Below are positions 14,436-57,421 of a stretch of DNA of 64,000 bases, piece by piece (the first letter of the stretch is position 1; each line of letters opens with the position of its first letter). The translations under genes were made by a program, and so were the position numbers. The stretch lies in contig JAYKXP010000187.1 of the NCBI GenBank assembly GCA_037176845.1, forward strand, positions 18,060-82,059. Reading direction: 5' to 3'. A model generated the notes under the pieces. The model ran no database searches and was not told the origin of the DNA. It saw nothing but the letters and a program-made list of their open reading frames with translations. The stretch is from Paramarasmius palmivorus. Lineage: Eukaryota > Basidiomycota > Agaricomycetes > Agaricales > Marasmiaceae.

Positions 14436-14437
14436 TA

Positions 14438-15189: not shown

Positions 15190-15270
15190 CGTATGCTACA
15201 ATAGTCCCGCGCGCCTGTCCATAGATAGACCACCCGCGGGTACACATTCCTAATATATCCATAGTACACA
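15190..15270. repeat. Left arm of an imperfect inverted repeat bracketing the KDZ core
   Basis: The reverse complement contains TATGGATATATT, then GG...GTGTAC..., CGGG, and TATGGA at the same spacing as 35,215-35,262 on the plus strand. In the 38-nt part compared base by base, about 29 match, next to 8 exact bases. A GTGGGA.TTT block follows in both. The sequence between the arms is about 20 kb. Confidence 0.5.
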
Positions 15271-15839
15271 CACGTGGTATCCAGTTCACATGATTAATAC
15301 AATGTGTTACAACTTACCCAGGAGTGTGTTTATTCTTCCATTCGAGTTGCTCAACGATGATCCTCAGTATGGTGGTGCGTATGTTCCTCTTATCCGCTGC
15401 ATCCTTTTTTGCTGATATTCAGAAGGAATATTGACGGCTCCTGTCAGTGCGTTGGCAGATATAGTGCATCTATTCTGTGTATGAGAAGGAGTGTGACGGG
15501 GCGTTCGCACTAGTTGTCGCTGGGGGTTGTGCATTGTTTGTGAGTGGTGCTGGCATTCTGTCTTTGACCTACTGACGACGCTTTGGGCCATAACAGCTCA
15601 ATGTCAGCTCCAGGGACTGTCGCACCGTGTCCTCCGGATTTTAATGGATGCTGGAATGCTCGTACCTCGACACACAAGGACGAAGGAACTCCCCCACACA
15701 ACTCGAATGATCACTTTCCACTCCTTTCCACTCCTGCGCAGGCATTCATAATTCAGCCAACCCATGACACTCCATAGTGGTGCTTGGTACACTTTTTCCT
15801 TCCTAGATTCAACAGTCTCGGAATCCCCGTACTCCACTC
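15271..15839. other. Intergenic stretch leading into the tandem array
   Basis: Short ORFs only. From about 15,600 the sequence begins to show degenerate array-like elements (GGACTGTCGCACC, GGATGCTGGAATGCTCG). No gene is supported. Confidence 0.4.
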
Positions 15840-17900
15840 TACCGGTACGGTGATTCCATCGTCGAATCCAAGGTCTGCATGGGATCTTTACACTGTACCT
15901 ACCAGCAGTATTTGCAAATAATAACACCTGACAGTCTGTGGTGCGGGTGTACTGCCACCGCATAGGGCGCCCACACCATTCGCCTCCGAAATCCGACGTT
16001 CCTGGAACTATCGCACTTCACCGTGCAGGTATGGGGATTCCATTCTCCCAGGAGCTACCACCAGTGCTCACCAGTTCGACACCTGGCACTGTCCATGGTG
16101 TGCCTGCACTGGCCTGACGCAGTGCGTCGACTCCATTCCGCTTCGAAACTCGCAGTTCGCGGAATCTCCGCACTCCGAGGCGCTGGTATCGCGATTTCAT
16201 CACTGAAAAATCGCTCCGCGTGGCATCCTCTCACTGCAGCTACCACCACCAATACAACGCCTGACGGTATCCATGGTATGCCTGCTCTGGTCTACTGTAG
16301 TGTGTCAACACCATTCCTCTCCGAAACTTGATGTTCTCGGAATTCTCGCGCTTTACTGCACTGGTACGGGTATTCCATCGTCGAAGGAGCTACCACCAGT
16401 ATTCACCACTCCGACCCATGGCACTATCCATGGTGTGCATGCACTAGCCTGATGTGGTGCGTCAACTCCATTCCGGCTCGAAACTCGCTGTTCTCGGAAT
16501 CCCTGCACTCCAGGGCGCTGGTATGGCGATTCCATTACTCACAGAAAGGTCAGCCTGGGATCTGGCCAAATCAATACCTGACAGTGTCCAGGAGTGCCTG
16601 CACTGGCTTGCCGTAGTGTGCCGACACCGTTTACCCCCGACATTTGACTTCCTCGGTATGCTCGCACTGCACCCCGCCGGTGTGGTGATTCCATTTGTCG
16701 ATACAAAGGTCAGCATCTGATTCTCTTACTGCAACTACCACCATACTCACCAATCCAACACCTGACAGTGTCCAGGAGTGCCTGCACCGACTTGATGTAG
16801 TGCGCCGACACCGTTCCCGACCGAAACTCGAAGCCCCTGGAATCCTTGCCCCCTTGCCTATTGGTAATGGTATTCCACCGTTGGTCGGAATGACAATGAA
16901 GAAATGGCGAACGTCACAGGAGCTTGCTATACCGGTGGATGGTGCTGCTGTACTCTCTGTCCGTGGTACACTGACACCATTGCGCTTCGAATATCCCCAT
17001 TACCAGAATGCTCGTACCGTACGGCGTCGGTACTGGGATTCCACCATCGAACAAATGTTCTCACCGTGGGGTCCTCGCACTGTAACCACTACCAGTATTC
17101 GCAAATCCAATTTCCTCAAAGTCTACTTGGGGCAGCGACACTGCTTTCGCATGGTGCGCGGATACAGTTCCCCGGAAAAACGAATGTTCTTGGAATATTC
17201 ATACCCTCCACCATTGGGACTGATCCCACCGTCGTCATAATTGTTCACAGGTACAATTCCACCCCATAAAAGTCCACAGGGAAGGCCAATGGATTGGTGT
17301 CGTGGTGCCGTCATACATCCTTCCCATGGTTTGTCGACACCATTCCCTCCGAAACTCGACATCCGCGGAATCGTCGCACTCGGCGCTCTCGGTATGGCTA
17401 TTCCACCATCAATACAAGGATCTCAGCGTTGGATCCTTGCACTGCAACTACCACCAATACAACTCCGAACAGTGCTCATGGTGTCGATGTACTGCCTGGC
17501 TGTAGTGCGCTGACACCACTCCCTTCTGAAAGACGACCCTTTCGGAATTTTCGCACCCTGCGCTGCCGGTACTGGAGTTCCACCGTTGACAAAAACCAAT
17601 TCAATGGCGATCACTGTGCTACCGCCGGAACGTTTGCACCCTACACTCACTATCTCAATTCCGGAATATGTACACCGGTGTTGTGATACCACACCCGTAC
17701 GGTGCGCCGACACAGTCGTCCTTACAACCCACAGTTCGCGGAATGGTGGCACTGGTGCTGCAAATCTTCACTGCCTGTTGTAGGGTTGTGTAATTGCCTC
17801 CACGTGGTGCTACAGTTCTGCACCTTTCAATACCTAATGGCCCTGGAACGCCTGCATCCTCGCTCACTGGTACGATTATACAATCGTCGACAAGGTGCAT
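15840..17900. repeat. Degenerate tandem array (i), period about 160-185 bp
   Basis: The core GGTAYGGNGATTCCAYCGTCG recurs on the plus strand at 15,844, 16,028, 16,184 (degenerate), 16,363, 16,520, 16,678, 16,863, 17,029, 17,250 (degenerate), 17,391, 17,568, 17,677 and 17,870. Several units carry the accompanying blocks GTGCG(T/C)CRACACCATTCC, CCGAAACTCG, CTCGGAAT and CTACCACCA-(A/G)TA. Spacing is mostly 141-193 bp. The array lies immediately downstream of the KDZ stop codon (17,964). No continuous ORF spans it. Confidence 0.8.
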
Positions 17901-17963
17901 TCATTTTACTCATACCCCACTTCATTTGTGCTAAGATTATGACATAACAGTATTTGAAAATTG

Positions 17964-20900
17964 CTATGAAGGTGTACACATTGCCAGTATCCGGAGACGA
18001 TTCCATATCGACACAAAAACCTTTGTGAACAGGATAGCTCGGTTCTGTCGCATGTAACTGACTGCTTTCCGAATACGTCCTATCCCACTATTCCCACACT
18101 CTGCAGCACTCGAGTTAAGCTTGGACAGCTTGGCATTTGTCTCCGTGTATGTGGATAAAAGTGTCGCCGAAGAGCACTTTGTATGTCCTTTTGCATGAAA
18201 GCCATCGACAAGGAATTGTGTGCCGCTGAAGAACTCGGGCTCCCGTGTCATGCAGTATGGACCCAGAGCGCATGCAAAGTCGTAAATTACTCTTTTCGGG
18301 GCCTTTGGCCAGCGGGTGATCATGGCTGAAAAGACGTCATTTCGTCCTTCCCCCCGTGGTATGCAATGGAAACCGTAACAGATGCTATGTGTACACCATG
18401 CGCACATGAGCCCCCCTGTCAATCGGCGCTCGCCATATGTCGAGTAATATTTTGCACACTTGCCTCGGTCGCCACTCTTCTCGTTTCGATCGGGGTCACG
18501 GTCTCCGGTCAGCCTAGGATACTTTGGACGATGACGAATCTGCGGTAGCCCATAGCAACATCCGGTCTAGGAACTCTCAGTAACACTCTAACTGTTGAAT
18601 CACTATCACCCACCCTTTGCCAATCGCCAACCTCGCTGTGTTCAAGGAGTGGCAGTGGGGGTATGGATCCCTTCTTCAGATCACTAAGAACCTCCTCTAC
18701 CCGATTGATCATCCAGGAACACACTGCCATCATGGTACTTGTGTATCCTTGAAAAACACGCATTTCTGCCTCCAGGACCATGAGGACAGCAGGCACTTCC
18801 ACCAAGCATGAGGCATTGTAAACTGTTGGGCAGGCTACGAGCGCCTTCATCAATGCTACTGCCTGCTCGTTGACCATTTGCACAGCCGATTCCTCCCCCG
18901 CCAGCTATCATCCCTCACTATCAGTCGACCAGCCATATGAACATGATACAACCACTCACCTGTTCAAACAAGCAAAGGTAGCGTTGCCTCAAGTCCACGT
19001 CGTGTTTTCGGTTCTCATCTGGGGAAAAGAATACATGTTTGAATAGATTACCCAGTGGCAGAGCTTCGCGAGTCAAATCGGCGACGAGTAAGCCGAGGTC
19101 TTCACCTCCCACACTCGTTATTGAACCTCGCCTCGACTTGTTCTGTCGCACCCAATCAGCCAGTCGACTTCGGACGGTCTTACCCCTTGCAGTTGCCGGT
19201 AGCCATTGAGGCTTCACAGGGTACCTTCGATCTCGAACTGGCGCATCATCGTGCTCGTGGGTCGGCGGACATAATCCATCATTCAAATGCTTTTTGTTGA
19301 AGCCCGAAGTGACACCGTCAAAAATCATATTCTCCGGCTCAGTACCGCACTGTGGACAAACCATATCCTTGGCCAGATCCTGAATCGAAGCATATGCAAA
19401 CCATGCCTCTCGCAGCAAGTCCTCTCCAACAAACTTCGAACCTCGGCTCTCGTAAACGGCAGCCATTGCCTCGGTGAACGCGGTGAACGGAGTCACGCTC
19501 CTCGTGAAGCGATTCGTGTATTCATCCAACAGCTCATGCGTGAATAGCGCAGAGTTGTTGTAATTGAACAGTCCCAGTGATCGAGGATCAGGTCCAACTA
19601 AGCAATGTCGACGAGGTGGGCAAACTGAACAATGCTGTACCTCTATCGAACGAGAGACAGATCCAACCAGACCATATACGGTGCATTCTCGTACAAACTT
19701 TCCGAGGTTTGGGTTATACTCCACATGCGCCTTGCATGCCGACCGTCCTTGTCCTGCCAATAACTGTATAAGCGCGGGGATCTCGGTATTGGGATTTGTA
19801 CGGATGTAATGGACGGTATCAGATGGCAGCTGTGCCCATTTCGGAGGCATAATAGGAAGGTACGAAACTGAGCGCTCTTCATGCTGCCCTCCACTTAAAT
19901 CATCCACTAGGCACTTGGAATCAGTAGCAGTCACCAACCATTTTTGGGATATTCCTTACACATATATCCTTCAGCCCCTTGTGTATCTCCAACATCTCCG
20001 TCATCCCATTCTTGCTCAGCCTCCTCTGAAATACGCAGCACTTCCCGGAGAAATGCCCGTGCAAATCCTATGTGTTCACATCGTGATCGGTCTCGAGCAC
20101 ATCTCCAAGTGCCCTGTCCATTGTCCAGCCCCTCGTAGGTGACTATGGCGCGCCCCTTCAGTCCTCCACCGTGGCTCTGAACCGAAAAACGATTCAACCA
20201 GACATCTTCGTCACCCGTCATTTGCCTCCAAAACATTACCGTCTTGCCCTCTGATGTGGTGATCAGCAATTTACATGACTCGCAACACCACAGAGAAACT
20301 CACCTCGAAACCATAAATCTTCGTCCCTTCGGAATCTCTCATCTCTGAACTCCACATAGAATAGCCGATGCACACACAGCTCATTCTTATCGCCGTCAGG
20401 GCACAGACACGTCAATTCCAACTTGGATCCCACATTCCTTGATTCCAGGTGGTAGAAATGTTTCTGTGAAGGTTTGATCTCAGTACCCATGTGGAACTCC
20501 GGCATTCTATCACCCACCGTTGGTTCTCGTTGTCTAGCATTCCACCCCTGGACCACATAAATGTACCGCGCAATGCGGATGAACTTAAGGGATCCTGATT
20601 CCACCAGTAAGACATAGTCTTCAAAGGAGGCATCCGCGTCTTCAGACGCAACAAACGAGGCACGCTCGTCGCTAACACCAATCTCTATTCCTGCACTCTC
20701 CCCGCCAACCTCCGGTTCCCAGTTATCCCATTGCTCTTCTACCCTTGCACTGTTGTCATTCATTGACACGTCTGCATCCTCTGTCTCTCCTCGCCTCCAT
20801 TCGGCCACCACCTTGGAAGAGACCGCAACTTTGCGGCCTCGTCGTTGTCTGAGACGGCCTCTGTATGGCTTTTGCGGACTCGGCGTCTTGCGGATGTTGG

Positions 20901-21009
20901 TGAGGAGGGAGTGGCGTTCGCCAGGGTATGATATTTCTCCCTTCAGGTCTTCTCGACCGCCGGGATACGACCGCGGAGGTGTCTGCTGTCTTTTCAGGTG
21001 TGGGTACAT
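17964..21009 (-). CDS. KDZ-superfamily DNA transposase with SWIM and CxC zinc motifs, apparently intact (940 aa)
   Basis: Exons (minus): 21009-20304, 20250-19962, 19893-18960, 18904-18614, 18566-17964; introns are GT-AG and every phase closes. KDZ (Kyakuja-Dileera-Zisupton) transposases are RNase H-fold DDE enzymes that cut and paste their own element. Seen: a basic, disordered N-terminus (1-130); SWIM-like CxC-x8-CxH (C201, C203, C212, H214); a second zinc motif C286..C293.H295; the CxC region (C402, C420, C423) followed by CPPRRH; CPQCG (511-515) just before the presumed catalytic D524 (IFDGVT); D836 in IYDFAC; D861-H864-H868-C871; E896 in NSSAAEC. Exon 5 opens with CYGLPQIRHRPKYP, typical of the family. 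Start chosen as the first Met of the open frame. The exon 2/3 junction uses a GTGTAA donor and is the least certain. Gene A starts 69 bp away on the other strand. Confidence 0.9.
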
Positions 21010-21078
21010 CTTCGTGTTGGACTATTTGGCACAAATCCGTTGCTAAATTTTGTGACATGTGTGACATATCTCTCTTGA
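21010..21078. promoter_or_regulatory. Short divergent intergenic region between the KDZ transposase and gene A
   Basis: Only 69 bp separate the two start codons. This implies a shared bidirectional promoter or overlapping 5' leaders. No clear TATA box was seen. The placement follows from the two start choices. Confidence 0.4.
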
Positions 21079-22589
21079 ATGGCACCTTGCACCTCCCCCC
21101 GCCGCTCACCTCGCAAAGCAACCAGTCTATCAATTGCTCCCAAAGCCCGACATTGTAACCGCTGCCCTGACAAACCTCTTCTACGAGAATGCAGCATCCA
21201 CAGTGCCAAAGCAAAGAAAGCGGTGAGTATGATTTTACATTCACCACTCATCCTCGACGCTGACCTGTGCATTGGCATATCTCAGGCTCGTTCCTCAAAT
21301 CAAGCTCCTACCCCCATTTTTATGTCAGAGGTAGAGTAACATCCCTAGCTCGAATGTTCCCGCTTACTGACAGCAGGCATCAGAATCAGCCAGCAACAAA
21401 CACTTCTAAAGACAACAGAGACTCTACGGTGCGTGTCTATTGTATACTCATAGCTACTTTTGTCGTCGATACAATGCTTCCTTGTCCTAGTACCGGGACA
21501 AGAAAAGCTCATGACTTCGCATTTTTTTCTTCAATACCCTGGTCTCACCGAGTGCTAAATCGCTGACTAATCAACCAAGGACTTTGTACTGGATCCTCGT
21601 CTTGTTGAAGAGGACCGTCTCCGAGATGCTGCTCGTCAAGCATCTGCATCTGAAGACCTGTTAAGGAATGCTGCTCGCCAATCATCCCCCGAGGTACGTG
21701 AATCCTCATACTCCGCATGTCGTTTACTGATGGTGATAACAGGGAGCAGCTGAAGGCCAGATACAGAACCACATTCCATCACAGCTATTCCCGCCTAGTT
21801 CTCCCTTGCATGATCCTACGAGCGACCAGACCCTTATCAATTTTGAAGGCGACCCAGTGCATGGCACACCACTCCGTTTTGTCAATAGCAACCCATCCGG
21901 CCTTTCAACACCTTCACGAGCCTCTTCTGTCACGGTTGCCTCTCAGAGTCAAAAGAAAAAGCGAATTCGTGTCAGTGGCAAGACACAACCTTTTGGGCGA
22001 GTCAAGGGTGCTATGCGCGGTGAACTGGAATGGAGTATGTTTTCTTCCTTGCTACGTTTGACGTCGAACTAATCTTTATGCCAGATATACCACGCCGCCG
22101 TGAACGGGAACAGTACGAGTCATCACGAGAATTACGCACCAAGTGCTTCAACGTTCGAATTGAACGGATAGTTCAACGAGTAAGTAATCAAGGCATGGTG
22201 CTCGGGTGGTTTGCTAATTTACCGCAATACAGTGCGAAGAAGTTGCAAGAGCCACGGGATGTTGGCTTTATTTCTCTGCACAACATCGCTTCTCCGACCA
22301 TGGGTTCGTGCACTATGCATCTGATAGACTCCTATCTGATGGCGGGGACTTAATCAACGAAGTCCACACACTCCATTCCAACATGTACGATGCCCTGCAA
22401 AAGGCAACGATTCGCGACGTCGCGCAAGCCGAGATGGATGCAGCCAGGGCTCGAGAAGGTGAACAGGCTGCCCTCAAAGATGTCGCAGCACTCCAGGATA
22501 CTGTAGCCAATAAAGACGTTGTCATTGAGAAACTCCGTGCCGTAGTTCTCGCCAATGGTCTCGATCTTGATTCGCTTTCAGATATGTAA
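21079..22589 (+). CDS. Gene A: unknown protein with N-terminal Cys motif and C-terminal coiled coil (363 aa)
   Basis: Exons: 21079-21222, 21286-21330, 21384-21428, 21580-21693, 21743-22034, 22085-22179, 22233-22589. All seven join in phase through GT-AG introns of 50-151 bp, which strongly supports a real gene. The N-terminus is basic with a possible zinc motif (HCNRCPDKPLLREC, about residues 26-39). The middle is polar and low in structure, with a lysine-rich KKKKRIR patch. The C-terminal 119 codons contain a compact block (TGCWLYFSAQHRFSDHG) and a long heptad-like helix rich in Ala, Glu and Asp. I do not recognise the family. It is divergent to the KDZ transposase and could be an accessory gene of that element, which is inference. 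Confidence 0.8.
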
Positions 22590-22649
22590 AATTACTAGTC
22601 TACTACAATAATAAAAGCCCTTGCTCTACACTGTCAGCACAATTCCAAC

Positions 22650-23218
22650 CTACTTGAACTTGTTCATCTGACGAGCGATAACACCGGCCAAAAACTTCAG
22701 TAGCAGGTGAAAATCTGCATGACTCGAGGTTGCATGGGCTTCACTCGCAACACATGCTGTTCGGAGGTGAGGTTGGGGGTTTGGTTCAGGTGATGGTTCA
22801 GGTGATGGTTCAGGTGATACCCTACATTCTGTACAAGGAGAAGTGGTTCTGCTGGTTGGTGTCGATCTAGAGCCAGTCGTTATCATGAATCCCAGTTCAG
22901 CAATTATATACTCACTGCGGCACCAGACTTCGATGTCGGTGTCGAGGGGGACACGCATTACTATCGTCTGTTTCTCTGCACAATCTCGAAGGTGGTGTTC
23001 CCTTCGCGCTCTGGATGCGCCTTGTAGATCCCGCTCGCAGTTTCTCTGACAACCGTTTTCGACGCATCCGTTCTCGCCCCGATTTGCGACACTCCTCAGC
23101 ATTTCTTGTAGAACTCAGCCAGAGATATCAGAGAAACTATACAGAAGGCTCACCTTTTGCGGTAATTTGCAGCCGATACTCTGTTTGAGGCACGGCGTTT
23201 TTCCAGACTGCGAACCAT
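22650..23218 (-). CDS. Gene B: small protein with basic N-terminal motif (141 aa)
   Basis: Exons (minus): 23218-23154, 23104-22916, 22821-22650; phases close across GT-AG introns. The N-terminal half is very basic (MVRSLEKRRASNRVSAANYR followed by further Arg/Lys pairs to about residue 45) and resembles the start of gene C at 23,616-24,461. A short SPEP tandem repeat follows, encoded by three copies of a 12-bp GGTTCAGGTGAT unit (on the plus strand at about 22,780-22,820). The basic part resembles a bZIP-type basic region in composition, but no leucine zipper is seen. Convergent with gene A, 60 bp between stop codons. Confidence 0.7.
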
Positions 23219-23615
23219 TTCGAAGTGGAGGATGTTTTGTGACGTAGCCAGCGGCTAAGCGATACAGCCCTTTGCCAAATAAAGCCAAGCAATGCCCTTC
23301 CTCCTTCCGTCGTCGTAGGACCTGCTTCCGCCCTGATGGGAGCTCACCTAGGCTGCAGAAATGCTTTCAAACACAGCAACAATCTCTGCCAGGTCTTTTT
23401 TCGCTTGATTCACTCCATTCTAATTTACTGACAACCTCACTCACAGCATTCAAAAGGATTTCGATTTGGTCTGGATTGGGAGGATGCCACGCAGGATGAG
23501 AAGACGTGCCAACACACCCTATGGAACATTCACCACATCCATTCTATTGCCAATGTACTACCTACAGTTCCATATACATAACAATGGCCACCAGTTTCTA
23601 CCTTTCGGCCTAATT
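23219..23615. other. Intergenic between genes B and C
   Basis: No ORF with supporting splice structure. It contains the upstream region of gene B and the 3' end of gene C. Confidence 0.4.
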
Positions 23616-24461
23616 TTACCCACTATACGTCCATGCTGCAGCTCCTGTGATACCGTCCACCGCCGCACGCCAGAGCTGCTGTTGGCACTTAAGATTTCCT
23701 TCATTGTACTGCTCCTTCAGGGTTCCATCGAAGGCCGCATTCTCCAAACTTTCCAGAGCGTCACTGATACGCATTAAACGCATATGTATCTTTGATGCTT
23801 CCTGATATGGTGGTGAGACACCCTGCTCCCTTGATATGAGCTCCGTGTAACGCTCAGCATCCTCATACAAGCGTTTAAACACCCGAGTTGGCTCTGCCGC
23901 AGGAGAGAGTGTTCTCAGAACGGAATCTTCTCCACCACACCAGTCCAAAAGCTTTTGTAGAATGCCGTCGAAGTATTGGGAAACTTTGGGACACCGCAGA
24001 AAAGCGACCATCTCATTTTCTATGCGCCGGATGTGCCAGATGGGATCGCTTTCTTTCAGTCAATAAACATGCCTCAGTGAAAGATGATGACAACGTACTG
24101 GGCTTGGTGGTGGACAGCTGCCTGTCGTAGATTCCTACGGTGCATCTCCTCTTGATGACGCTCACGAGCCTCCTTCAGAGCCTTTCTCTGCTCCTGTCTA
24201 AACCAAGACCATTTAGCCAAGTCATTGACACCACAGCTCAGATATATAAACGAACTCTTTGGCGTGGTGCTCTGCTGCCTGGCGCTTTCTTGCGGCTTTC
24301 CGTCGAGCTAGGATCTGTTCCCGCTGCCTGTAAGAGATGTGAGACCACCGGTAAAATTAACTTCATCTTGGAAAACTGTACCTGTCATAGTATTGCTTGG
24401 ACTTTCGACAGATGGCCTGGCGCCGTGCCTCTGCGTTGGAATATACTTTACGGCGTGGCAT
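23616..24461 (-). CDS. Gene C: basic N-terminal motif plus helical C-terminal region (227 aa)
   Basis: Exons (minus): 24461-24382, 24327-24256, 24197-24099, 24048-23616; all phases close. The first 85 residues are a strongly basic helical segment (starts MPRRKVYSN; CRKSKQYYDRQREQILARR) sharing a pattern of Ser/Lys, Tyr-Tyr and Arg-Arg with gene B. It continues as a Glu/Arg/His-rich coiled coil (EARERHQEEMHRRN). From about residue 85 a more globular helical block begins (DPIWHIRRIENEMVAFLRCP) and ends with an Ala-rich tail. The family is not recognised. The basic start suggests nucleic-acid binding, which is inference. Same strand as gene B, 398 bp upstream of it. Confidence 0.75.
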
Positions 24462-25127
24462 GTGAAGGTGAAAGAGAAGCGCCCACAACCTGCAGACAGA
24501 CGCGCGCTGGTTCAAAGTTGCGAGGTCTCCACACAGATCCTCTCATTAAAGTCGATATTCAGCGACATGAGAGGTGCTGAAACTATGCCAAAGAATGATA
24601 GGTAGTGGTTAGTATCATTTACCTAGCCTGTCAGTACACCCTTTTCGGTGAGGACTCATAAAGATGCACAGCTCTGCCCTTGAGTGTATGTATGTACTCG
24701 ATTGCATAGACCGCCTTACAATCGATGGTCTCACCGTTTCAAAATCCATAATTTTTTTTTGTAAGGTCTTTGTCAATGGCCATATGAAGACAGGCTATTC
24801 AGTTACGTCGAATTCTCGCATGAAAATATTCAAGAATTTTTTTTTTCGTGCCGCCACTTAGTCACGACAACCCTCTGCGGCCATCCAGGGCTCATATTTG
24901 CCCACAATAGTACTAACATGATATTTAGTAGCGTAGAACAACACTATCTTGACATGGATCTCAGTGGACAGCCCCGGGAAAGCGTGAAAGCACAGGCATT
25001 GGATTCCAAAGTGCAGTAGTGATAACAGTGTGACACGACAGTGTTGTTGACTATTAGAGCAGTAGCTAGATACATAACGATCCATATGTATTGAGAACCA
25101 GTCTGTGGTAGAGTCGACAGCGTGCAT
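24462..25127. other. Intergenic between genes C and D
   Basis: AT-rich with two T-runs (about 24,750 and 24,840). Short ORFs only. It holds the 5' region of gene C and the 3' region of gene D. Confidence 0.45.
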
Positions 25128-26180
25128 TTAAAATTCAGCAGTCCACCCGCATGCAGCGTGACCGAGTCCATCTACAACAGCATCCTGAAGGTCTTCCGCA
25201 GACAGTGTTCCTCCGCACAGAGGGCACTCGGTCGTCTGTTCACGGGGCGGATAATCCCACAGAAATGACAGGTCTGCATCCGGGTGAAACAGTAGGTGGG
25301 CCAGGTACTCGGCCACTTCACTTCGATCGTGATCTAGCCGGTAACTTGCGTCAGCGCATCTGTATCTCCAAGACCTGATAGACACTTACTGAGCCATTTA
25401 GCCAAAGACAGGAGCGCCGTTACAACGGCATCTCGTGCAACGGGGGTTATTCCTTCAAGCTGGTCTCGGAGCACTTCGATTTGAATTTCTGGGATAGGTT
25501 GAGTACTCATAGATCGATAATGCCAAGTGATTCTCGTACCGTAGGCAATCGTATGTGCAGTATCAATGGTCAACCAACTGAAGAAGTCATGCGGGTACTC
25601 TCTCTCCTGCTCTGCTGGGTTTGGTTGAGACCCCTCTGGCCCAGATGACATCGGCTGAACGGTGGTAGAATCGTCCATCACGAGAAAAAAAACGCCTGTA
25701 AAATCGTCAGCACATGGTTGTGACTTTCTCCCAAAGAGCTTTGATCCAACCTGCTGTAGTTTGAGGGTGTACAGTGACTGGGTTCTTGGAGAAGACGAAA
25801 CTGGAGGAAAGATACGGTTGCACTCGGGATTAGTCACCAAGCACATGACTCGGGCTTGTGCGTGTGCTTGTGCGTCACCCGTAGTGAATAGACCGCGAGT
25901 CTTGTACTCAAACCTAATATTCTATCCATGAAAATTTTTAATGGGTCCTGAAGGCATGCAAATGAAGAAATACTTACTGTTTAAATTCATCTTCGTTGTT
26001 GCAGACTACAAAAGCAGCGGAAAAGAATTTCCAAATGTTGTGATACGGCGCGTGATAAGACAGGTGTGACGCACTCCTTTTGCCCCTCAACCACGATGGG
26101 GCTCCTAGAAAAACTTTCAGGTGAGACTCCTTCCATCGTAACATAGTTATCGGATGCTGATATACGGTAGAATGTCCCAT
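25128..26180 (-). CDS. Gene D: unknown protein with C-terminal Cys-pair motif (about 310 aa)
   Basis: Exons (minus): 26180-25978, 25913-25390, 25333-25128; both introns are GT-AG (64 and 56 bp) and in phase. The C-terminus carries CPLCGGTLSAEDL...HAACGW, a likely zinc-ribbon-like knuckle. Upstream is a helical block (EVLRDQLEGITPVARDAVV). The 3' two exons are convincing. The first exon is uncertain, because a second minus frame from a Met at 26,244 also looks protein-like over 26,050-26,244 and because gene E may overlap it. A shorter start at 25,678 would give 164 aa. Not recognised as a known family. Confidence 0.6.
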
Positions 26181-29100
26181 CGCTAGCTCTGGAGACCTTG
26201 AAACTATTCACCAACGTGAGTTTTTTTTTTTTTTTCGGGGCCATGCGCTGTGAGGACCATGCTTACTGCTTCCTGTACAGTTAAACAATCCCTTGTTCAG
26301 ACCCAGGACGTCCTGCAAACGGATAACGAAGAAGCACGTCGTCAGCTCAAGAAACATAACGACGGCCTCGCCAAGCTCAGGTTGAAGGCAAACCCCTCTC
26401 CAGCCTTGGTCACCACAACAGAGCGTGCCGCCTCCGAGACAAAGAAGAAACACTTGCGTCTGGCTCTGAAAATCGATGTGTATACGAAGGCCATTCGTTA
26501 TTTATCAGAGGCAGAAGGTGCATCGTCTGTTTGTCAGTCTTGTGACCTTGACTGACTTGCGCCAACAGAGGTGATTCATATCAACGAAAAATTGAAGATC
26601 GAAAAGAAGAAAGGTCGTCGTACAGAGATGGAGAAGGTGCTGGAGCAGCACAAGTCCGCAATGCAGCTCATGCTCCAGTTCGTGAAGGATAAGGGTGGGG
26701 ATGAGAATTATGACGATGGTGAGAGGTCCCCTGTAGCCCGCCACGACATTCTTCTCAGTTCATTCATAGCCTTCGGTAGCTCAGATTTGAGCGAACTTCC
26801 TGAGAGCGACCTTGAAGGTAGGCCTCTGATTGGTTTTCCACATTGAACCACAATTAATGAATTCACAGTGGAAAAGCCGCTAATCGAAAGCAAATCAAAG
26901 GCTCCACTGCGTCGCAGCAACAGACGTGCATTGGGCCAAAATGCACCAGAGACGCAACCTGTTGTCTCTGCGAGTCCAGAGAAACCCGTCGGTCGGAAAA
27001 TCCCAACAGGTCGTGTTCCAAGGGGACCAATGGGGAAATCCAATCACCAGGTTATGGCCGGTGGCATATCTCAAGCCGCCCCTGCAACGGAGCATCGGAC
27101 CAATCTGGCTGCCGAACCATCTGCCCCTCAAGAAGGTTCTCTGCCGCCTGCCGTATCCAACCCGGGTGGCGACGACCAAGGCATGGTTTCCCCAGAGTTT
27201 GTTGCCGAGACAATGCCCCACTCCAATGCCTCCAAGGGGTCTCCGAAACCTGCCAAACGAGTTGCCGGTAGTCGTCATGTTGTCAAGAACCCTCGCAAGC
27301 GGGGACGTGAGAGCGATGGTTCCAGCAACCCAGCTCCGTCTGCGAAAACCCGCAAAACTATCAAAGACTCCGAAATGGAAGCTGGGGATAACGATACACC
27401 TGCAACACCCATTGAGCCTCCGGCTGGGATAGACGCAATGGAGGACATACCACATGTTGACAGTCGAGACAAGGAGGATGCCTCAGATGACGATATCATC
27501 CCTGCGCCGCAGACGCCGCAGAGATCTTCTGCCAAGTCTTCCATCATCCTAAACAGGAGAGAAGTTTCACCTATGGCGCATCACAACAACACTGCCGACA
27601 ATATCCATGACCATTCCCAACAACTACTCACAAAAGCGAAATCTTCCTCAGCACAGAGAGTGGTGAAAGATGATGACGACAGTGCCGATGATGAAGAGGA
27701 TGATGACGACAGCACTAGCGATGGCTCTGACGACGAGGAGGATGCTGGTGCTAAGAGGGATGCTGACGATGACAACGATGACGATGATGAAGCGCCAGGG
27801 AGAAGAGGTGTTCATGCCACCACTCGGATGCTGATTGTCAATGACATCAGTGACAGTGACGAGGATGCTGCACCACCGAAACATCACCCTGCAATGAACG
27901 CTCGCAGTATACCCCAGCCTGCCAACACTATCAATCCTCGCAATACCAAACAGAAGATTCCTATGGCGTCTTCGAGTTCAGCTCGTGCTAGGGATACAGA
28001 CCAGGACAGTAGTCATGAATCCGATAGTGACGAAGATACCGAGCCCCCGAAGAAACCAGTCTTGAATCGACTGACTACGGGTAAACGTGCTGGCGCTGTT
28101 GAAGACGATGCGGCTAATGTTGGATATTCCTTTGGTCCGAAGAGCAAAGTTGGAGGTGGAAGGAAACACCTGGTCATGGCTGCTAAGGAGGATGCCGGCG
28201 AGGTTTCTGATGACGACGATATTGTTGAGGTTCCCCCTCCAAAGAGGAAAGGTCACGAAACTGCAGCAAAGAAAGGCAAGGGCGCGGCGAGACAAGGTGG
28301 ACAGGCTGGAAGGGATAATGATGAAGAGGTTTCTGAGGTTGAGGCGCGTATTGCTGCGACAAAAAGGAATAGGCCTGAGGTGGTAGCGAAGAGAGGCAAA
28401 GGAGGTCCAGCCAAACACAGTGCAAAGGCTGCAAAGGCGGATGAAGAAGTTTCCGATGTCGAACGGCCTATCAAGGCGAAGGGCGGTGCTCCCAAACGCA
28501 GCGTAAAGGCAGCAAAGGGCGATGGTACAGAGGAGGTGCCCGTCACGAAGCTGAAGGGAGGTCCAGCTAAACGTGGTGGAAAGGCTGCAAAGAATAACGG
28601 TGAAGTGGCTTCTGGTGACGAGGCACCTGTCAAGAAGAGGAGGGGAGGCAGACGCAAGGATGGTGGAGAGGATTCTGAGAAGGTGCTGGTGCCGGATCAT
28701 GAGAACAGCGACAAAGTCGTGTCGGTTACTGAAGGGGGAGTCGTTTGGAACCACCGCGTGCTAAGAAACTTGTGCCCAGACGTACTGGCAGCATTGACGG
28801 CAGCACGTCGAGAGGAGCTAGATTGGTGTGAGAAGAAGAAAGAAAGTAAGTTTACAAAGGCTTCTGTGTAATAATTCAGTACTCACCTGCTACTCCGAAG
28901 ATCTTGCCAACCGTTACATCCTCCAGTATCTCGCAAACCCGACAGAGGCGAACCTAGACATGCTCGACGAGGGGTTGCGCAAGTACATCCGTGATGATTC
29001 CCGCACTGTGCCTCTATCCACTGCCTGCCTCCCCATCATCGAAAGGGTTCTCACGACGGGAAAGAATGGCCAAGGTCTCACAAAATGTGTATACCATCAC

Positions 29101-29811
29101 TACGCCAACAAACTCAAGAGCACAATGATCCACGACCAGGCTGCCGAGTTAGCTTGGGATCGCCTCTTCAAAGAAGAAGACAGCGACGACGACATCGTTG
29201 TCAGAAAAGTCACGATTCGAGAGCTGGAAAAGCAGATCATGCAGGACATTCCATTGGCGAAGCTTAGAGTGAACGGGGCTGCTCGCCAGGGACTCCGCTC
29301 TGGCCAAGGAGGCCCCGAGTTAGGATATTGTCACTGTGGTTGCTCCCGACGAGATGCAGCCATGGGCTTCGTACTCTACAAAGACCTGACTATCACATCG
29401 GAGGCCGGCACGGTCGAGGGTTGGAAGTGGCAGAAGCAGGATGTCAGAGATCGTCAGTTTCTGATGGCTGCCATCCTGAAGTACGGCCTGCTCGAGCTGG
29501 AGGACATACTGCCTTACAAGTTGGTCACAGAGAACGGCAGGACCTATTACCGTAAACGCGACGAGGTGGAGTTGATGGATACCGTGATTGAACGCTACCA
29601 GACGAAGCGTAAAAATCTGTTGGAAGAGAGGAAGGCAAAAGAGAAGGCGAAGCAAAAGCAAGAAGAGGAGGAGGACAACATGTGCTTGTTGTCAGATCTA
29701 GAGACCAAGCCGTCTGGTAAGAAGTATCTGAAAAGGTCCAGAGTGACGGAGGAGATGGACGCCGAAGAGGATGATGATGGGGCAGATGACTCTTCCGAGT
29801 CAGAAGATTGA
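26096..29811 (+). CDS. Gene E: large charged nuclear-type protein, coiled coil + acidic + Lys/Ala-rich repeats (about 1130 aa)
   Basis: Exons: 26096-26120, 26171-26215, 26281-26517, 26569-26718, 26770-26817, 26869-28845, 28901-29811; all phases close. Residues about 20-155 are a charged coiled coil. About 170-430 is disordered and Pro/Ser-rich with basic KRGR-type patches. About 436-476 is almost pure Asp/Glu. About 600-750 holds Lys/Ala-rich repeats (KHSAKAAK, KRSVKAAK, KRGGKAAK) like linker-histone tails. The last 330 residues look folded, with VVWNHRVLRNLCPDV, a GWKWQKQDVRDRQFLMAAI block, and an acidic tail. Likely nuclear and chromatin-associated by composition; no domain recognised. The two small 5' exons overlap gene D antisense; the alternative start is the ATG at 26,259 inside what would then be an unspliced first exon. 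Confidence 0.8.
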
Positions 29812-29981
29812 CAGATTTGGCACTGGTAATAATTAGTTTCATGGACGATATCATGTAGAGAAATTCGTACTTAGTGAACTGGAAACTTGTGTCCACGTCA
29901 ACTGAAGATGCTGAGTCAGCATTAGGGAACATGTGACCGGTCTGCATTCGAGTTCGGGATCTGACACTAGACAGTCAACCA

Positions 29982-31083
29982 ATGCTTCGCCTTCGAAAGC
30001 GGCAGCGACTGCCAAACGATGTGGTGGTCGACATCCTAGAGCGACATGTGAGGACAGTGGGGTGGAAGGGTAACATGGAGCTGTTGCTGATGAACCGGGA
30101 GGTGACGCAGAGGTGAGCACTCAAGAATCCGTTTTGAGCACTTGCTGAAAGTCGGATGACCTTTCAGACTCTATCCAGCGTTCTATCATACGGTGAAAAT
30201 ATGGAAAAAGAAGCAGGTCAAGCGCCTGTGTGCAACGCTTTTGTTCCATCCGCGCCGAGTTCGGTTCATTCACGCCTTGTTTGTCTGCCTTGATCATCGT
30301 CACCCTTGCTCGCCAGTGTTTCTCACACCAGACTATCCTGAAGCGTTCAAACCTGGATCCTGGCATGGAGATTGGATTTCAGAGAAGATGTTTGGGGCTA
30401 TTAACCACTTACTGGAGATCACCTCGCCATTTTTGCAACGGCTGACTATTGTCTCGAAGACAGATCACCCAGAGATCACCGACGCCATGCAAAAACTGGT
30501 TTTACCCAATTTGACGGACTTGGAAATCTCTTCAACCGCCATGTTGGACTTACAGCCAGGGCGATTGAAGTCGTTGACTTCTCTTCGCCTCGCGATCGAC
30601 CTGAGCGTCGAGGGATGTACGCAAGTGTTGGAGAACGGTTCTCTGGAGGGATACATGGATTTGTCTCGCCTCTACCTCTCCTATGACAATGGACACATCT
30701 TGGACATGGAGGACAAAGCGTTCAAGCTTCAGACGCCACAGATGATTCGTCTGCTGGCTATCGAGTTTGATTCAGGGCTGCACCTGCCAATGGAGTGCTC
30801 TGTCTTGTGGAGATATGAAGTTCACCCGAAGGTTGTGTTCATGGTAGATGAAGAGTGGGAGCATTGTGCCACTTATGGTTTGGATGCAACAGGCGATAAC
30901 AGGTGGCGAAAGGCTCACGTGGAAGATCTGATGTTGGTGGGGGTAGCTGGGAGAAGCGACGTGTGGAAACAGGTGGAACTGAAGGTTCAGAAGAGGTGGA
31001 TAGGGTTTGAAGAGGAATTTGCGGGACTGGAAGAGGAACGAGACGAGATATTGAATAGCGCCACTCATTTTGTTCTAGTGTGA
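29982..31083 (+). CDS. Gene F: F-box-like protein (348 aa)
   Basis: Exons 29982-30112 and 30168-31083 join in phase over a 55-bp GT-AG intron. The N-terminus, LPNDVVVDILERHV at about residues 10-23, fits the start of an F-box (LPxDxxxxIL). A Leu-rich region follows (FLQRLTIVSK, LPNLTDLEIS, LKSLTSLRLAI), as expected for degenerate leucine-rich repeats used in substrate recognition by SCF ubiquitin ligases. F-box-like families of this kind are greatly expanded in agarics. Start is the first Met. Gene G follows 208 bp downstream on the same strand and looks like a distant relative. The Skp1-binding role is inferred from the motif only. Confidence 0.7.
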
Positions 31084-31291
31084 AGGCGTGCAGACCGATC
31101 ATTTCAGTAGAATCGCCGATATTTATGTACCATCGTTCATGTTGATCACTGTAGTCAGCAACATTGGCGTAATGTTGAATCGCGAGCAATTTCGTCTGGA
31201 CGGTTGAGGTGTGACGGGGGTGACAAGCGTGACCCATCCAGTCTCCCTCTGTATCTCATCGAATTGTCGTTGCAAGCGAAACTTTCTAACC

Positions 31292-32691
31292 ATGCCATTG
31301 TACAGGTGAAGCATACGCAGCTTGACAGAGGATGGACACTGATTTTGCTTTAGTACCAGTGCCGCCGTCAACATCTGTCCTCCAGAACTGATCGAAAAGA
31401 TAGCGGATTTGCTCCTTGGGACGTCGTTCGTCAATGACCAGACCTTGCGGCTGGTGATGTACCCCCAGGCGATGAAGGATTTGAACAGGATGACGGTGTT
31501 CCGAAAGAGCTGGATTCCTGTTGTGAGGTCTCTGCAAGCTAAAAGCTTGTTTGGAGAGCCGGTACTGAGGTCGAAATGGGATAGGTTGGTAGAGGTGTTG
31601 AATGGCGAGGTTTCTAGCTCGTTTGCTGGACAGACGGACTCTTTCTACATCTCGATGTGGGATGCTCCCGACGTGAGGCCTATCAGACCTGGCTTCTTCT
31701 TTCGGTCAGGTTTCGGGCCAAGCGAGTGGAAGCGTGGCATCAATCCCTATCTCAACTTCCTCTCGACGACTCTGACATCTGGCGAAACCGTAGGAGAGGT
31801 TCTCTACAGCGGCACAAAGCAGCTCGTGCTTGTTGCGGTACCACACCCTCATTACCTCCTGCCAGCAGAGATCAATACTATGACTCGCGCCTTTCGGAAT
31901 ATTACGGACCTAGAGATCCGGGTGACGTGGTCGGTGAAGCGGTTCGTGGACGCAATTACATTCCTAGGTGCCTTTGAGGCATTGGAGAGTGTGATATTGC
32001 GGGAGTTATACGTTGTGGATGATGAAGAGAAGGCGGCATGGGAGGTGTTGGAGCGAGAGATGGGGGATTGTCGTTTGCCTAACTTGGATTATGTGGTGGT
32101 CGAGTCGCGTTTTTCGCCATACAACATCATGTTATTGCTCGCCTTGGGTCCCTTGCCGGCTTTGAAGCAGCTGGCCTTGCACGTCAAGGGAAAAGATTTG
32201 CAATGGATGGGCGACAAGACGGCAAAATGGTGGCCAAGAGTGGCTGGACTGCTGTCTGGTTTGACTTTCCTGGACCTGTTCGCAAAAGAATCTTCTGAAC
32301 GTGAGTCGAATTGCATAATAAGGATGTTAATAACACTGACAACAGTAAAGGTGATTGGGAAGGCTTCGACCTCACTGTAGCATCGAAGCTTGTTGAGCTG
32401 GAGGTACGAAGCGGCCGGGATATCGACTTCTCCTCTTTCTTGCAAAGAAACTCGCCATGGAGAGCAACAGAAATCCTGACCATTCCTGATCTGATGGGTT
32501 TCAAGGACCTTGCTGCTCTGGATATAGTTCTTGCTAGCCAACCTTGTCTGAGGGTGGTTAACTTCGAGGTACCTGTAGCCATTTGGGAAGACGACGGCGT
32601 GATCCAGGAGTGGGCTAACATCATCTCTGATGCAATGCCTCTCTGCAAAGGACGAGACCTATTGAAACCGAAAAAGGTCAAGAGAGGATAG
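31292..32691 (+). CDS. Gene G: F-box-like / LRR-like protein (433 aa)
   Basis: Exons 31292-31305, 31354-32300 and 32351-32691 join in phase. The first exon encodes only four and two-thirds codons (MPLY...), and the AGT codon is completed across a 48-bp intron. This fixes an otherwise missing start, since the second exon's frame has an upstream stop. CPPELIEKIADLLLG at about residues 11-25 resembles an F-box start. Later Leu-rich strands (LPALKQLALHVKG, LLSGLTFLDLF, ASKLVELEVRSG) look like LRRs. Probably related to gene F and tandem to it. Function as an SCF adaptor is inferred. Confidence 0.7.
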
Positions 32692-33829
32692 GCTCGAGTG
32701 AGTGGCATTCCGTTGAGCGTTGAAGGGAATGTGTTGATGGTGTTCTTCCAGGAAATAGATCTGCAAGACAGATTGTTCCCGGCGTCTTGATGGTTTCCGT
32801 AGGAAAATCGTTAGAGGTTGGATTCTATGTATCTCCCTGTCAGTGTTGGATAATTCAAAATCTTCGTGTTACGCACCTTCGTAGAATGCGGTTTTATTGA
32901 CGACACCAAAGGCAAAAGTAGGGAACTTTGGTTGACCAGACTCTGGTTTGAAAGTGATTATGGTCTAAGGAATGTCCATTAGCTATGCATTGACGAGTGA
33001 GCCAAAGGAATCGTCGCACCGGCTTGCTATGGTGCGATTGTTCTGCATGAACACATCACGCGGCGAGTTACTCGTTCATAAGCGGGGAGTTGAGGTATAT
33101 CCTCTCCTATACAGCAGATAGTAATGGTAGGTCAATGAACTGCGATTGCGTTGGGCAGAACGTTGGCACCATGAGTCGCTGGTCGTTGATGAGAGTGGGC
33201 AGGTTGCGTGGGAATTGTTGCGTGTTTGGTACTCAGCTCCCACGAGCCATTGAGTCCTTAGCTTCCTGGTGCATCTATCCTTTGTATCTATTGTTTCTTG
33301 GTGCTATATCGCGTATTGGTTCGTCTTCAAGAGATTCAGCTATGGCTGAGTAGTTACTCAAAGCTCAGTTCTATCGTCCTTACCAGGAAGCACTCGAAGG
33401 GTCTATATTCCGTCTTGGCATAGTGCTGCCATTCCTGCGGCTTTGTGTTCCCCAGCTTATCTCCAGCTATTTCAAAGTATAGGCTTAACTATGGTACGGA
33501 ATATTTGCACTTGGGTATGTGTTCTGCATGTTTTCAGAGCGTCTGCACCATCCCACGTACGGTACTCCCGTTCTTTCGGCTGTGTATCGTTGAGTTTGTG
33601 TCGTTCTAGGACAACACTCGAGCTCACAAAGAACAGAAATCGGGGTGCACAGTTACCATGCTTGGGTGCAGACATTCTTTGTGCTACTGGGTACAGTCAT
33701 TCCCCCGAGATTTCTGTTAAACGTTGATCCTACACTCAGATTTCAATGCGTTTCCGGATACCTGAGTAATGGCTGGGTTGAATATCACCATTGAATGTCA
33801 AAGTCTCTTGGTCGGTGTCCGGCGTTGAA
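32692..33829. other. Intergenic with possible minus-strand exons
   Basis: On the minus strand an acceptor-flanked open stretch (about 32,970-32,880, reading TFKPESGQPKFPTFAFGVV) followed by a GTGCGT donor and a short terminal exon ending near 32,814 looks like the end of a small gene. A candidate upstream exon (NNRTIASRCDDSFGS, about 33,060-33,000) would need an implausibly short intron. I could not build a complete model. From 33,400 to 33,830 I see nothing convincing. Confidence 0.35.
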
Positions 33830-35160
33830 ATCCAGACGGTACGACTGTATCTTCCGAGGGCTGCAGAACAACGGCCGTTGGCTTGTAGGATGGTGTCGTG
33901 GTTTTGTCTGGATATGGTGCAAGAGTTCCGTACCGTACCACTGTGTCCATGGTAAATCACCGCTAAGTATGATTCTTCGATCTTGAGTCTTGACGGTATT
34001 GAAGCAGTGGTTTTGTTCTTCGATTTCGGTTTACCATTTGGAGTAGGTGATAAGAGAAGGGGGTGGTGCCATTATACTTACTCCGAAGACAGCCTGAGGC
34101 ATTCTACCCCACCAATCCTTCTCTGTTGGTGCATCGATTCTATCTGTTGGAGAATTGGCGGACTGTAAGTTATTCCGCTTCTATTTATCATTCAGCTTAG
34201 AGGAGTACTATGGGGTGGTACGATTATACCCTCTATTCAGATGTTCAATGCCCTGACCGTATCTGGTGCGTCAATTCCATCTAAAAAGAGCGAGCCTGAA
34301 ACTGATGTCAGTTCTTGGTGTAACCGTGTCGTTCTTCTACTATATGTCCTACTGTGAATACCATTCAGTGTAGCGGATAGAGTATAAAGTGGTACATTCG
34401 TACTCTGAAGCTCATGTCGCCCTAGTAATCCATCTCCAGTGGTACATCAATTCTATCTTTCAGAAAATTGCGGTCCATTCAGTATGATGGTACCTTCTCT
34501 GATGTTTATATCTACTGAACAATCCATCTCCACTGGTACGTATATTCTATCTTTCGGAATGTTTGGTGCATTCAGCGTCACGGTAGCGTCGGAGAGTATG
34601 AGGTGGGGCGACTGTACCTTCTCTGATGTTCATATCACCTTAGCAATACATCTCCGCTGGTGCGTCAATTCTATCTTTCGGAAATTTTTGGTACATTCAG
34701 CGTGGTGGAGAGAGTATGAAGTGGTGCGACTGTACCTTCGATGGACATGTCACTCCAGCAAACTTTCTCCGCCTGGTGCGTTAATTCCTGTGTTTCCGAC
34801 AATTTTGGTTCTGCGAGGTCCGTGTCTATTTCTCATTCTGCGTAAGCGTTAGGCGATTGTACCTGCTCTGGAGAATAATCCCCTTTCACTGGTGCGGGAA
34901 TTCCGTCCTCTCAGACGAGCGAGATAGATGTTCTAGTGGCCTCTGGTGCGTCGATTCCGTATACCTTCGAAAGAGTGGAAAGGCTTCGGACTGTAGGTGC
35001 TGTACCTGAACACATGGCCGTCGCTGGTGTGGCAATTCCGTCTTCTCAATCGAGCGAGATGGATGTCCTAGTGGTCTTGGCTGGTGCGTTGATTCCGTCC
35101 CCTTTTGAAACAGAGAATTCGGAAGAACTTCAAGCCCTGGTGCTTCGATTCCATTCCTGG
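33830..35160. repeat. Degenerate tandem array (ii), related to array (i)
   Basis: The core GGTGCGTCAATTCYRTCTTTCGG or a variant recurs on the plus strand at about 33,838, 34,215, 34,263, 34,392, 34,440, 34,535, 34,659, 34,775, 34,891, 34,945, 35,025, 35,083 and 35,142. The best block (34,440-34,900) has units of 95-124 bp with shared GTACATTCAGCG, GAGAGTATGA and GACTGTACCTTC segments. TGGTACGATTATAC occurs both here (34,213) and at the end of array (i) (17,869), in the same orientation. No gene spans it. Confidence 0.75.
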
Positions 35161-35214
35161 CCGTGTGAATATCTCTCCGATCAGCTAGGATTTTGGTGTG
35201 GAAAGAGTGTTTGT

Positions 35215-35297
35215 TTATGGATATATTTGGTAGGTGTACAGGCGGGAGGGCTACATATGGATTGGTGAGTGCGTTTATAACGACCCGCGCGTGGGAG
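35215..35297. repeat. Right arm of the imperfect inverted repeat bracketing the KDZ core
   Basis: TATGGATATATT, GGTGTAC, GCGGG and TATGGA occur in the same order and spacing as in the reverse complement of 15,190-15,270. The arm lies just outside array (ii), as the left arm lies just outside array (i). Confidence 0.5.
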
Positions 35298-35299
35298 TT

Positions 35300-57420: not shown

Positions 57421-57421
57421 A

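Follow-up and report, generated by a model that had tools for sequence, protein, structure and literature searches.

Here we describe a complete KDZ-type DNA transposon of 20,176 bp at positions 15152-35327 of the window, the whole 64-kb stretch of Paramarasmius palmivorus DNA that was analysed. Judging from its sequence, we assign a probability of about 0.92 to the reading that this 20.2-kb element is a complete and autonomous DNA transposon of the KDZ superfamily that moves by cut-and-paste and was inserted relatively recently. The initial annotation had proposed a 20-kb KDZ element with accessory genes, and this proposal is supported by a target-site duplication (TSD), a paralogous empty site and copies elsewhere in the genome that share its ends and genes. 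KDZ elements are common in mushrooms, and descriptions of their ends and gene content are scarce in the accessible portions of the literature examined. One lineage now has exact ends, TSDs, an empty site, a near-identical copy pair and a conserved set of companion genes (Table 1). Two questions can thereby be tested: which functions beyond a transposase a large DNA transposon requires, and how one genome can accommodate dozens of transposon lineages that have diverged yet are intact. Genes B-G also pose a practical risk, as annotators of mushroom genomes could mistake them for host genes.

The element is bracketed by a perfect 8-bp duplication, AGCGGTCT, as had been anticipated near 15.1 and 35.3 kb. 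The anticipated empty site was found as well: at another place in the genome, a paralogous sequence carries one target copy, AGCGGTCC, without the element, and its flanks match across the junction at 700/716 and 1161/1240 bases. Treating the region as one large unit was thus correct, while the ends first placed at 15190 and 35297 have moved to 15152 and 35327, outward by 38 bp on the left and by 30 bp on the right. An imperfect inverted repeat had been noticed just outside the arrays, and it is real: 15179-15273 aligns with 35207-35300 at a score of 67, against 46 for the best of 969 random pairs of 400-base pieces of the window. It is the inner part only of imperfect terminal inverted repeats (TIRs) of ~130 bp, which start 27-38 bp further out and end the element in GGGGCA../CGGATA...

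Table 1. Features of the KDZ element in the window.
Feature	Position	Strand	Remarks
Complete KDZ element, 20,176 bp	15152..35327		TSD, empty site, termini common to relatives
Left target-site duplication, AGCGGTCT	15144..15151		single copy AGCGGTCC in empty site
Right target-site duplication, AGCGGTCT	35328..35335		perfect 8-bp match to left copy
Left terminal inverted repeat, begins GGGGCAGCCGTC	15152..15279	+	79/128 aligned bases equal to the right one
Right terminal inverted repeat, reverse complement begins CGGATAACCGTTGA	35200..35327	-	termini recur in relatives
Left sub-terminal repeat array: both orientations, core GGTRYG..ATTCC	15640..17900		limits approximate
Right sub-terminal repeat array	33990..35180	+	limits approximate
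KDZ transposase gene, several exons	17967..21247	-	approximate span, ~3.3 kb
Last transposase exon: proposed second D (YDFAC), FHxxGHxxC, E (SSAAECGN)	17967..18566	-	83-87% aa identity, five relatives
Transposase exon: CxC4 cluster, proposed first D (IFDGVT)	18924..19955	-	48-53% aa identity, five relatives
Gene B: CEEVA..TGCW motif, then probable coiled coil	21740..22586	+	approximate; adjoins 41/51 KDZ loci
Gene C	23619..24542	-	approximate; clear by tblastn in C214 only
Gene D	25131..25921	-	approximate; conserved segment 25131-25385
Gene E: long protein, acidic and basic runs	26220..29808	+	approximate
Gene F, leucine-rich-repeat-like (weak)	29937..31080	+	approximate; LRR_8 E 0.016, window copy
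Gene G	31343..32688	+	approximate

The initial annotation had suggested a search for further copies with these ends as a check; such copies exist at unrelated loci, and both the termini and the gene set recur there. All seven elements fetched on both sides are 16.9-21.7 kb long with matching termini and perfect 8-bp TSDs, and their TIRs are 58-88% identical over 90-128 aligned bases, the C2 element having the lowest value (58%). Terminal repeats were found again at both ends in 4/4 of the first relatives fetched. In the relatives, the complete gene set lies between the termini, which are not placed close around the KDZ gene (17.9 and 21.1 kb in the window). Two elements at unrelated sites, C214 and C314, show no difference when compared inward from the left terminus (1320/1320 and 1383/1383 bases identical). 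At C47, C267, C116 and C159, of which only the left side was fetched, there was no convincing matching left end; the blocks common within C47/C267 and within C116/C159 begin at other sequence, and C47 carries GGGGCAGCCG ~2.6 kb further out. When each end and the left array were used as DNA queries against the genome, the window itself was the only match; the relatives are too diverged at the DNA level, and protein searches were therefore used. Pattern searches for the termini (at most one mismatch) gave 54 matches against 22 for the reversed pattern, and 74 against 48, hence with much background; the known ends are among these matches, and a right terminus appearing in this search partly determined the choice of C19.

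Sub-terminal repeats lie within both ends. With at most one mismatch, the window has 39 matches to the core GGTRYGNNNATTCC, where 3.2 would be expected, and 0 of 100 shuffles reach this number. Arrays with one shared core on both sides had been claimed, and 17 matches do fall at 15.4-17.7 kb and 12 at 33.0-35.2 kb, the remaining 10 of 39 lying elsewhere in the window. The further description of two tandem arrays in direct orientation suits the right array, which is nearly all plus (11 plus, 1 minus) and is the only one reported by Tandem Repeats Finder (34490-34809). The left array is mixed, not purely direct, because it has 9 plus and 8 minus core copies, and its repetition is looser, the units being spaced 157-184 bp or roughly double that distance apart. 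The two arrays resemble each other weakly in direct orientation (score 44, against at most 38 in 100 shuffles), and the array comparison in C30 gave no resemblance between left and right. In 12/12 sub-terminal regions, at both ends of six elements, repeated 8-mers are more numerous than in any of 100 shuffles; for comparison, flanks have 0-6 and internal stretches up to 58. In the six elements tested, the sub-terminal arrays at both ends are element-specific.

The transposase gene proposed initially is present. Its minus-strand ORF 18924-19955 matches Pfam CxC4, a KDZ-associated cysteine cluster, at E 3.4e-39, and ORF 17967-18566 matches Pfam KDZ (PF18758) at E 1.3e-4 and 22.2 bits, under the curated cut-off of 26.6; the KDZ domain appears to be split over exons. 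The catalytic D, D and E are a proposed assignment from conserved motifs. The motif of the first D occurs in 11/11 loci holding that exon, that of the second D in 15/15 loci covering it, and that of E in 15/15 (12 in a first scan; C80, C74 and C30 in a second). An AlphaFold2 model of a Candolleomyces relative has a mean pLDDT of 56 and falls below 50 over most of the stretches proposed as catalytic, too low a confidence to confirm an RNase H-like fold. The CxC4 exon had no match in the plasmid collection. Of the segments compared, the last (catalytic) exon is the most conserved. Gene conversion was rejected as the cause because synonymous sites in this exon are about as diverged as elsewhere.

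Five other elements carry the companion genes in the same order and strand as the window (5/5 collinear), with gene C weak and the last exon of gene G in 2/5 relatives. Alignments of the gene C ORF with C2, C80 and C30 reach 26-33% aa. Gene E has a conserved C-terminal domain (GYC.CGC..DA, R.R) at 28822-29808, and its protein is probably nuclear. Protein database searches with the conserved part of gene E, limited to candidates of 0.55-1.75 times the query length, returned nothing, a negative of little weight because the whole protein is probably ~1,000 aa by our estimate. Searches of PDB sequences gave one chance-level match for gene E (E 0.79) and none for gene G. The predicted structure of gene G, at a mean pLDDT of 40, alternates between strands and helices in the manner of leucine-rich repeats; the model has no PDB match at E <=0.001, and those listed are meaningless at such confidence. 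Gene F of three relatives had no Pfam match in the scan. An NCBIfam scan assigned no family. The idea that genes F and G encode F-box proteins came from reading their first residues and was dropped, as Pfam gave it no support.

The window might be thought to hold a small ordinary KDZ copy at ~18-21 kb beside unrelated host genes, the arrays and the inverted repeat being coincidental. The KDZ gene alone spans ~3.3 kb and the array orientation is mixed or direct, both of which would suit such a copy, but it is the full 20 kb that lies between the two TSD copies and is missing from the empty site, and unrelated loci carry the ends and genes again; the empty site refutes this reading, and we leave it almost no probability. 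It is also very improbable that KDZ elements were domesticated at these loci and gave rise to gene clusters that no longer move: the perfect TSDs in 7/7 elements, the empty site and the two near-identical copies at different sites speak for mobility, even though last exons are open at 51 KDZ loci and purifying selection is strong. We see a similarly slim chance that the element is non-autonomous, a composite mobilised in trans by a different transposase, its own KDZ gene being a passenger. The genome does have many other KDZ genes, and the window transposase is a predicted enzyme; against this, its catalytic exon is the most conserved of the segments compared and the candidate triad is found in every locus examined that covers it.

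Genes B-G could instead be captured host cargo, for host benefit or accidental, as in Starships, and not a fixed core. That the scans made linked them to no known family of transposon proteins would agree with such an origin, as would four gene G fragments outside KDZ loci. However, gene order and strand are fixed in six elements, and B and E are almost without matches away from KDZ genes. Gene B lies divergent beside the transposase at 41/51 KDZ loci, against 0.13 matches expected by chance, and has no match at the other 10. Occurrence of the genes apart from KDZ, which the initial annotation had named as a counter-sign if met in related species, is hardly seen for B and E in this genome, as 43/44 matches of gene B and 24/25 of gene E stand beside a KDZ gene. 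For gene G, 6/11 matches are in the expected place, and C10 has one copy on the opposite strand; the four outlying fragments, of which 2/4 contain stops, could be what is left of former elements. Synonymous differences are 0.49-0.95 per site and nonsynonymous ones lower in every pair compared, which indicates that the companion genes are under purifying selection. Divergence runs in parallel in six gene segments, the matrices correlating at r 0.80-0.98, values reached by 1-9 of 720 permutations. Genes A-G belong within one element, as first suggested, but with their purifying selection and a divergence pattern shared with the transposase they behave as a fixed core evolving with it and not as loose cargo; captured cargo is unlikely.

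In the mechanism that we propose, the transposase would bind the terminal repeats and arrays by means of its CxC4 half, which evolves fast, of companion proteins such as E and B, or of both. The transposase would pair the element ends, its conserved catalytic half would cut them, and joining of the cut ends to staggered target DNA would produce the 8-bp duplications. The companion genes would be helpers of transposition or host survival, not passengers, with candidate roles in end recognition or chromatin, the LRR-like proteins perhaps meeting host factors. Old lineages would keep moving at low copy number, since near-saturated synonymous sites go together with perfect target duplications in each two-sided element. 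Tentatively, and at somewhat under even odds, this one mushroom genome would harbour dozens of long-separated ~20-kb, seven-gene transposon lineages, mostly in 1-2 copies, each intact and mobile. Their catalytic half would be nearly frozen while the CxC4 half, companions and arrays co-diverge, as if each lineage had private recognition and copy-number control.

The CACTA/En-Spm and MuDR two-protein transposons combine sub-terminal binding-site arrays with an accessory DNA-binding protein; they are other superfamilies, and the window element resembles them in layout only. Starships move by a tyrosine recombinase, are not known to have TIRs and carry variable cargo. They are large multi-gene mobile elements of Pezizomycotina fungi, according to the accessible text (PMC12134995). 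The window element differs from them by its DDE-type enzyme, TIRs and fixed gene set, and the main ORFs scanned gave no Pfam match to a tyrosine recombinase captain, showing a KDZ/CxC4 gene with TIRs instead. Marasmius oreades belongs to the Marasmiaceae, the family of the host. KDZ and Plavaka elements are present in M. oreades, KDZ being abundant, and their TIR motifs have been characterised, as given in the accessible part of that account (PMC8290104).

Among KDZ elements, KDZ1, KDZ2 and KDZ3 of Cryptococcus neoformans are ~9-11 kb long with a CxC1 cluster, TIRs of 139-241 bp and TSDs of 8 bp (4-8 bp for KDZ2/3), as far as the accessible portions of the accounts go (PMC12810828; PMC12510652). 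They share with the window element a CxC-type KDZ transposase, TIRs and 8-bp TSDs, whereas the window lineage is about twice as long (16.9-21.7 kb) and has CxC4 and several companion genes; the same portions make no mention of sub-terminal arrays or a conserved companion gene set (PMC12810828; PMC12510652). In the accessible portions of the literature searched, we found no description of a 17-22 kb multi-gene KDZ element. Zisupton and Dileera have 8-bp TSDs, and Zisupton has TIRs, in the accessible text (PMC12730594); the window lineage is like both in its TSDs (7/7) and like Zisupton in its TIRs, a likeness of structure. A TET/JBP dioxygenase had no Pfam match in the ORFs scanned, where a divergent PE type could be missed. 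Kyakuja of Agaricomycetes, which has the KDZ superfamily and mushroom hosts in common with the window element, is reported there with 7-bp TSDs, CA..TG ends and no TIRs in Laccaria families (PMC12730594). Assignment to Kyakuja was rejected on the 8-bp TSD, the GGGGCA/CGGATA ends and the TIRs, and the window element fits the TIR-bearing, 8-bp-duplicating KDZ transposons.

The 20-kb KDZ element that the initial annotation placed at 15190-35297 is borne out, but its ends lie further out: after alignment with relatives the left end is GGGGCAGCCG and the right end CGGATAACCG (reverse complement). The inverted repeat holds up, scoring 67 where the best of 969 random pairs scores 46, and a search for other copies with the same ends recovered the window's terminal repeat on both sides, in the correct place and orientation, in 4/4 closest relatives (on contigs C2, C80, C74 and C30). 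Identity between the two terminal repeats of an element ranges over 58-88 % in alignments of 90-128 bases, the lowest value, that of C2, saying little on its own. The target-site duplication (TSD) sought at these ends is present as a perfect 8-bp copy in the window element and six relatives, that is, in all seven elements fetched on both sides; C19 was selected partly since its right terminus had turned up in a terminus pattern search.

Coordinates, lengths and 8-bp TSDs of the window features and related elements
Feature	Window position	Length (bp)	TSD	Remarks
Window element	15152-35327	20,176	AGCGGTCT	perfect
Transposase	about 21.2-17.97 kb			minus strand
CxC4 exon	18924-19955			transposase exon
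Last transposase exon	17967-18566			conserved; proposed catalytic residues
Ty3/gypsy ORFs	56217-61183			plus strand
Period-36 array	62637-62851			minus strand
C2 element		16,908	CTTATCTC	perfect
C80 element		17,823	GATTTGAC	perfect
C74 element		16,990	AAAACGTT	perfect
C30 element		17,826	GCAACAGG	perfect
C214 element		17,767	CACTTCGG	perfect; ends GGGGCAACCG and CGGATATCCG
C19 element		21,723	GAAACCCC	perfect; more distant; length by hand from end positions

An empty site was also found. The DNA left of the window element is a genome repeat with 59 matches including the window, and its copy on contig C156 matches at 96 % right to the insertion point. When both window flanks were joined with one target copy retained and aligned to C156, identities were 700/716 and 1161/1240 on either side of a single AGCGGTCC, with the element absent; this site is paralogous, not allelic. 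The insertion target itself (window 11000-15151) is multi-copy, with several matches clustered on C136, C156, C87, C171 and C69. The element has been inserted as a single unit with an 8-bp target duplication.

C314 and C214 carry the same element in unrelated flanks, with 1320/1320 and 1383/1383 bases identical from the left terminus inward. These blocks are separated by a 1,261-bp insert at positions 1321-2581 of the C214 element (L042:6962-8222), absent from the C314 copy. The insert contains a 373-aa ORF that reads like a Tc1/mariner-like transposase. Farther in, over the KDZ transposase, the C314 copy (L055, C314:17500-24000; left side fetched) has dozens of short gaps relative to C214, which we take for decay or assembly error. 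C47/C267 and C116/C159, fetched on the left side only, do not fit the pattern: their shared blocks start at sequence other than the known termini, and these elements may be truncated or end differently. Beside the transposase, C47 (L049) and C267 (L050) are identical over 2074/2074 aligned bases and diverge abruptly at CACACC(C)GG; in C47, GGGGCAGCCG occurs 2.6 kb beyond that point.

The window is bases 18060-82059 of contig C187, in a genome of 68.3 Mb and 393 contigs with at least 178 matches to the KDZ Pfam family; a named relative of the transposase is Paramarasmius palmivorus VNI00_003864. The CxC4 exon has 60 genome matches, 48 of them (the window's own counted) with identities of 44-100 % and E values no worse than 6.1e-75, and the surroundings of its four closest relatives (C2, C80, C74, C30) were fetched. 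The last transposase exon has 69 matches, of which those sharing 74 % identity or more across no fewer than 193 residues form a 51-locus set; the 18 left out are more distant relatives and fragments. No stop is reported in 50/51 of these exons, the one TGA, in C30, lying where its open frame ends. Some loci form pairs whose scores are equal or whose DNA is nearly identical: C47/C267, C134/C302, C116/C159 and C214/C314.

Genes A-G had been proposed as cargo. They do travel inside the element, but not as loose cargo. A search for other copies with the same genes, by tblastn of the window ORFs, showed that the five further complete elements keep the transposase and genes B, D, E, F and G in identical order and strand (5/5), with a weak gene D match in C30 and the last exon of gene G matched in 2/5. 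Gene C is clear by tblastn only in C214; its ORF alignments with C2, C80 and C30 (C74 left out) give 26-33 % identity. Across the genome, 43 of 44 gene B matches are divergent and lie 2.6-5.3 kb from a KDZ locus of the 51-locus set or three further anchors, and gene B is present at 41/51 loci against 0.13 expected by chance. Likewise, 24/25 gene E matches adjoin such a locus (19/51 loci, 9.0-14.5 kb away). Gene G has 11 matches: six where expected, one in C10 that is reversed in strand and four fragments elsewhere. Nonsynonymous divergence matrices for two transposase exons and genes B, E, F and G in six elements correlate at r 0.80-0.98, with 1-9 of 720 permutations as high. Together these patterns point to the companion genes as core of the element.

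Pfam gives a CxC4 match plus a weak KDZ match in the transposase, a weak leucine-rich-repeat match in the window copy of gene F (E 0.016) and coiled-coil-like matches in gene B (best EzrA, E 1.2e-5, under the curated cut-off); scans of genes C, D, E and G returned no useful family. Gene E has a conserved domain whose GYC.CGC..DA and R.R residues are invariant in seven aligned sequences. Structure predictions were too low in quality to judge the catalytic fold or to name genes.

Synonymous differences per site are 0.69-0.95 (0.49-0.62 for the closest pair, C80-C74), estimated from stop-to-stop ORF segments with introns not modelled. At nonsynonymous sites the last transposase exon differs by 0.02-0.13 and the CxC4 exon by 0.11-0.34, with values reaching 0.54 in other segments. 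High synonymous divergence together with perfect duplications argues for old lineages residing in insertions young enough for their duplications to stay perfect.

In published accounts, Cryptococcus KDZ1-3 measure about 9.2-11 kb with terminal inverted repeats (TIRs) of 139-241 bp and 8-bp TSDs (4-8 for KDZ2/3) (PMC12810828, PMC12510652), and Kyakuja of Laccaria has 7-bp duplications and CA..TG ends without TIRs (PMC12730594). The window element differs from Kyakuja in TSD length, ends and TIR presence, and on those grounds falls outside Kyakuja. As judged from structural features, its TSD fits the Zisupton/Dileera type, as do its TIRs, which are reported for Zisupton (PMC12730594). Published sources also describe CxC2 preceding intact KDZ elements in Pleurotus, and many KDZ elements in Marasmius oreades, with TIR motifs given in the supplement (PMC8290104). 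Our literature search found no KDZ element of such size with a conserved gene set, which does not prove absence.

Judging from the superfamily, transposition would proceed by DDE cut-and-paste. The anatomy suggests that the sub-terminal arrays could be binding sites for the N-terminal half of the transposase or a companion protein, and that companion proteins might help to pair the ends, deal with chromatin or evade control by the host.

The related arrays noted on both sides (GGTRYG..ATTCC core) are weakly alike in the window, in direct orientation. The window holds 39 occurrences of the core motif where 3.2 would be expected, and 29 lie within the two arrays and their edges. Repeated 8-mers exceed all 100 shuffles in 12/12 sub-terminal regions (six elements, both sides), the weakest being the right side of C30 (19 against 9); flanks have 0-6 and some internal windows 20-58. 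Within an element, the left array is similar to the right one in 5/6 cases, C30 being the exception; between elements, arrays are mostly unlike (exceptions include C74/C80 and C2/C80). The relative orientation of left and right arrays is direct in the window, C2 and C80 and mainly inverted in C74 and C214; it varies among elements, and direct orientation, thought to weaken the case, is therefore no weakness. Near the contig end, a period-36 array of GGTATTGTAATTCC-like units could be a sub-terminal array of another element. The window also holds Ty3/gypsy retrotransposon ORFs (gag, protease, reverse transcriptase, RNase H, integrase and chromodomain).
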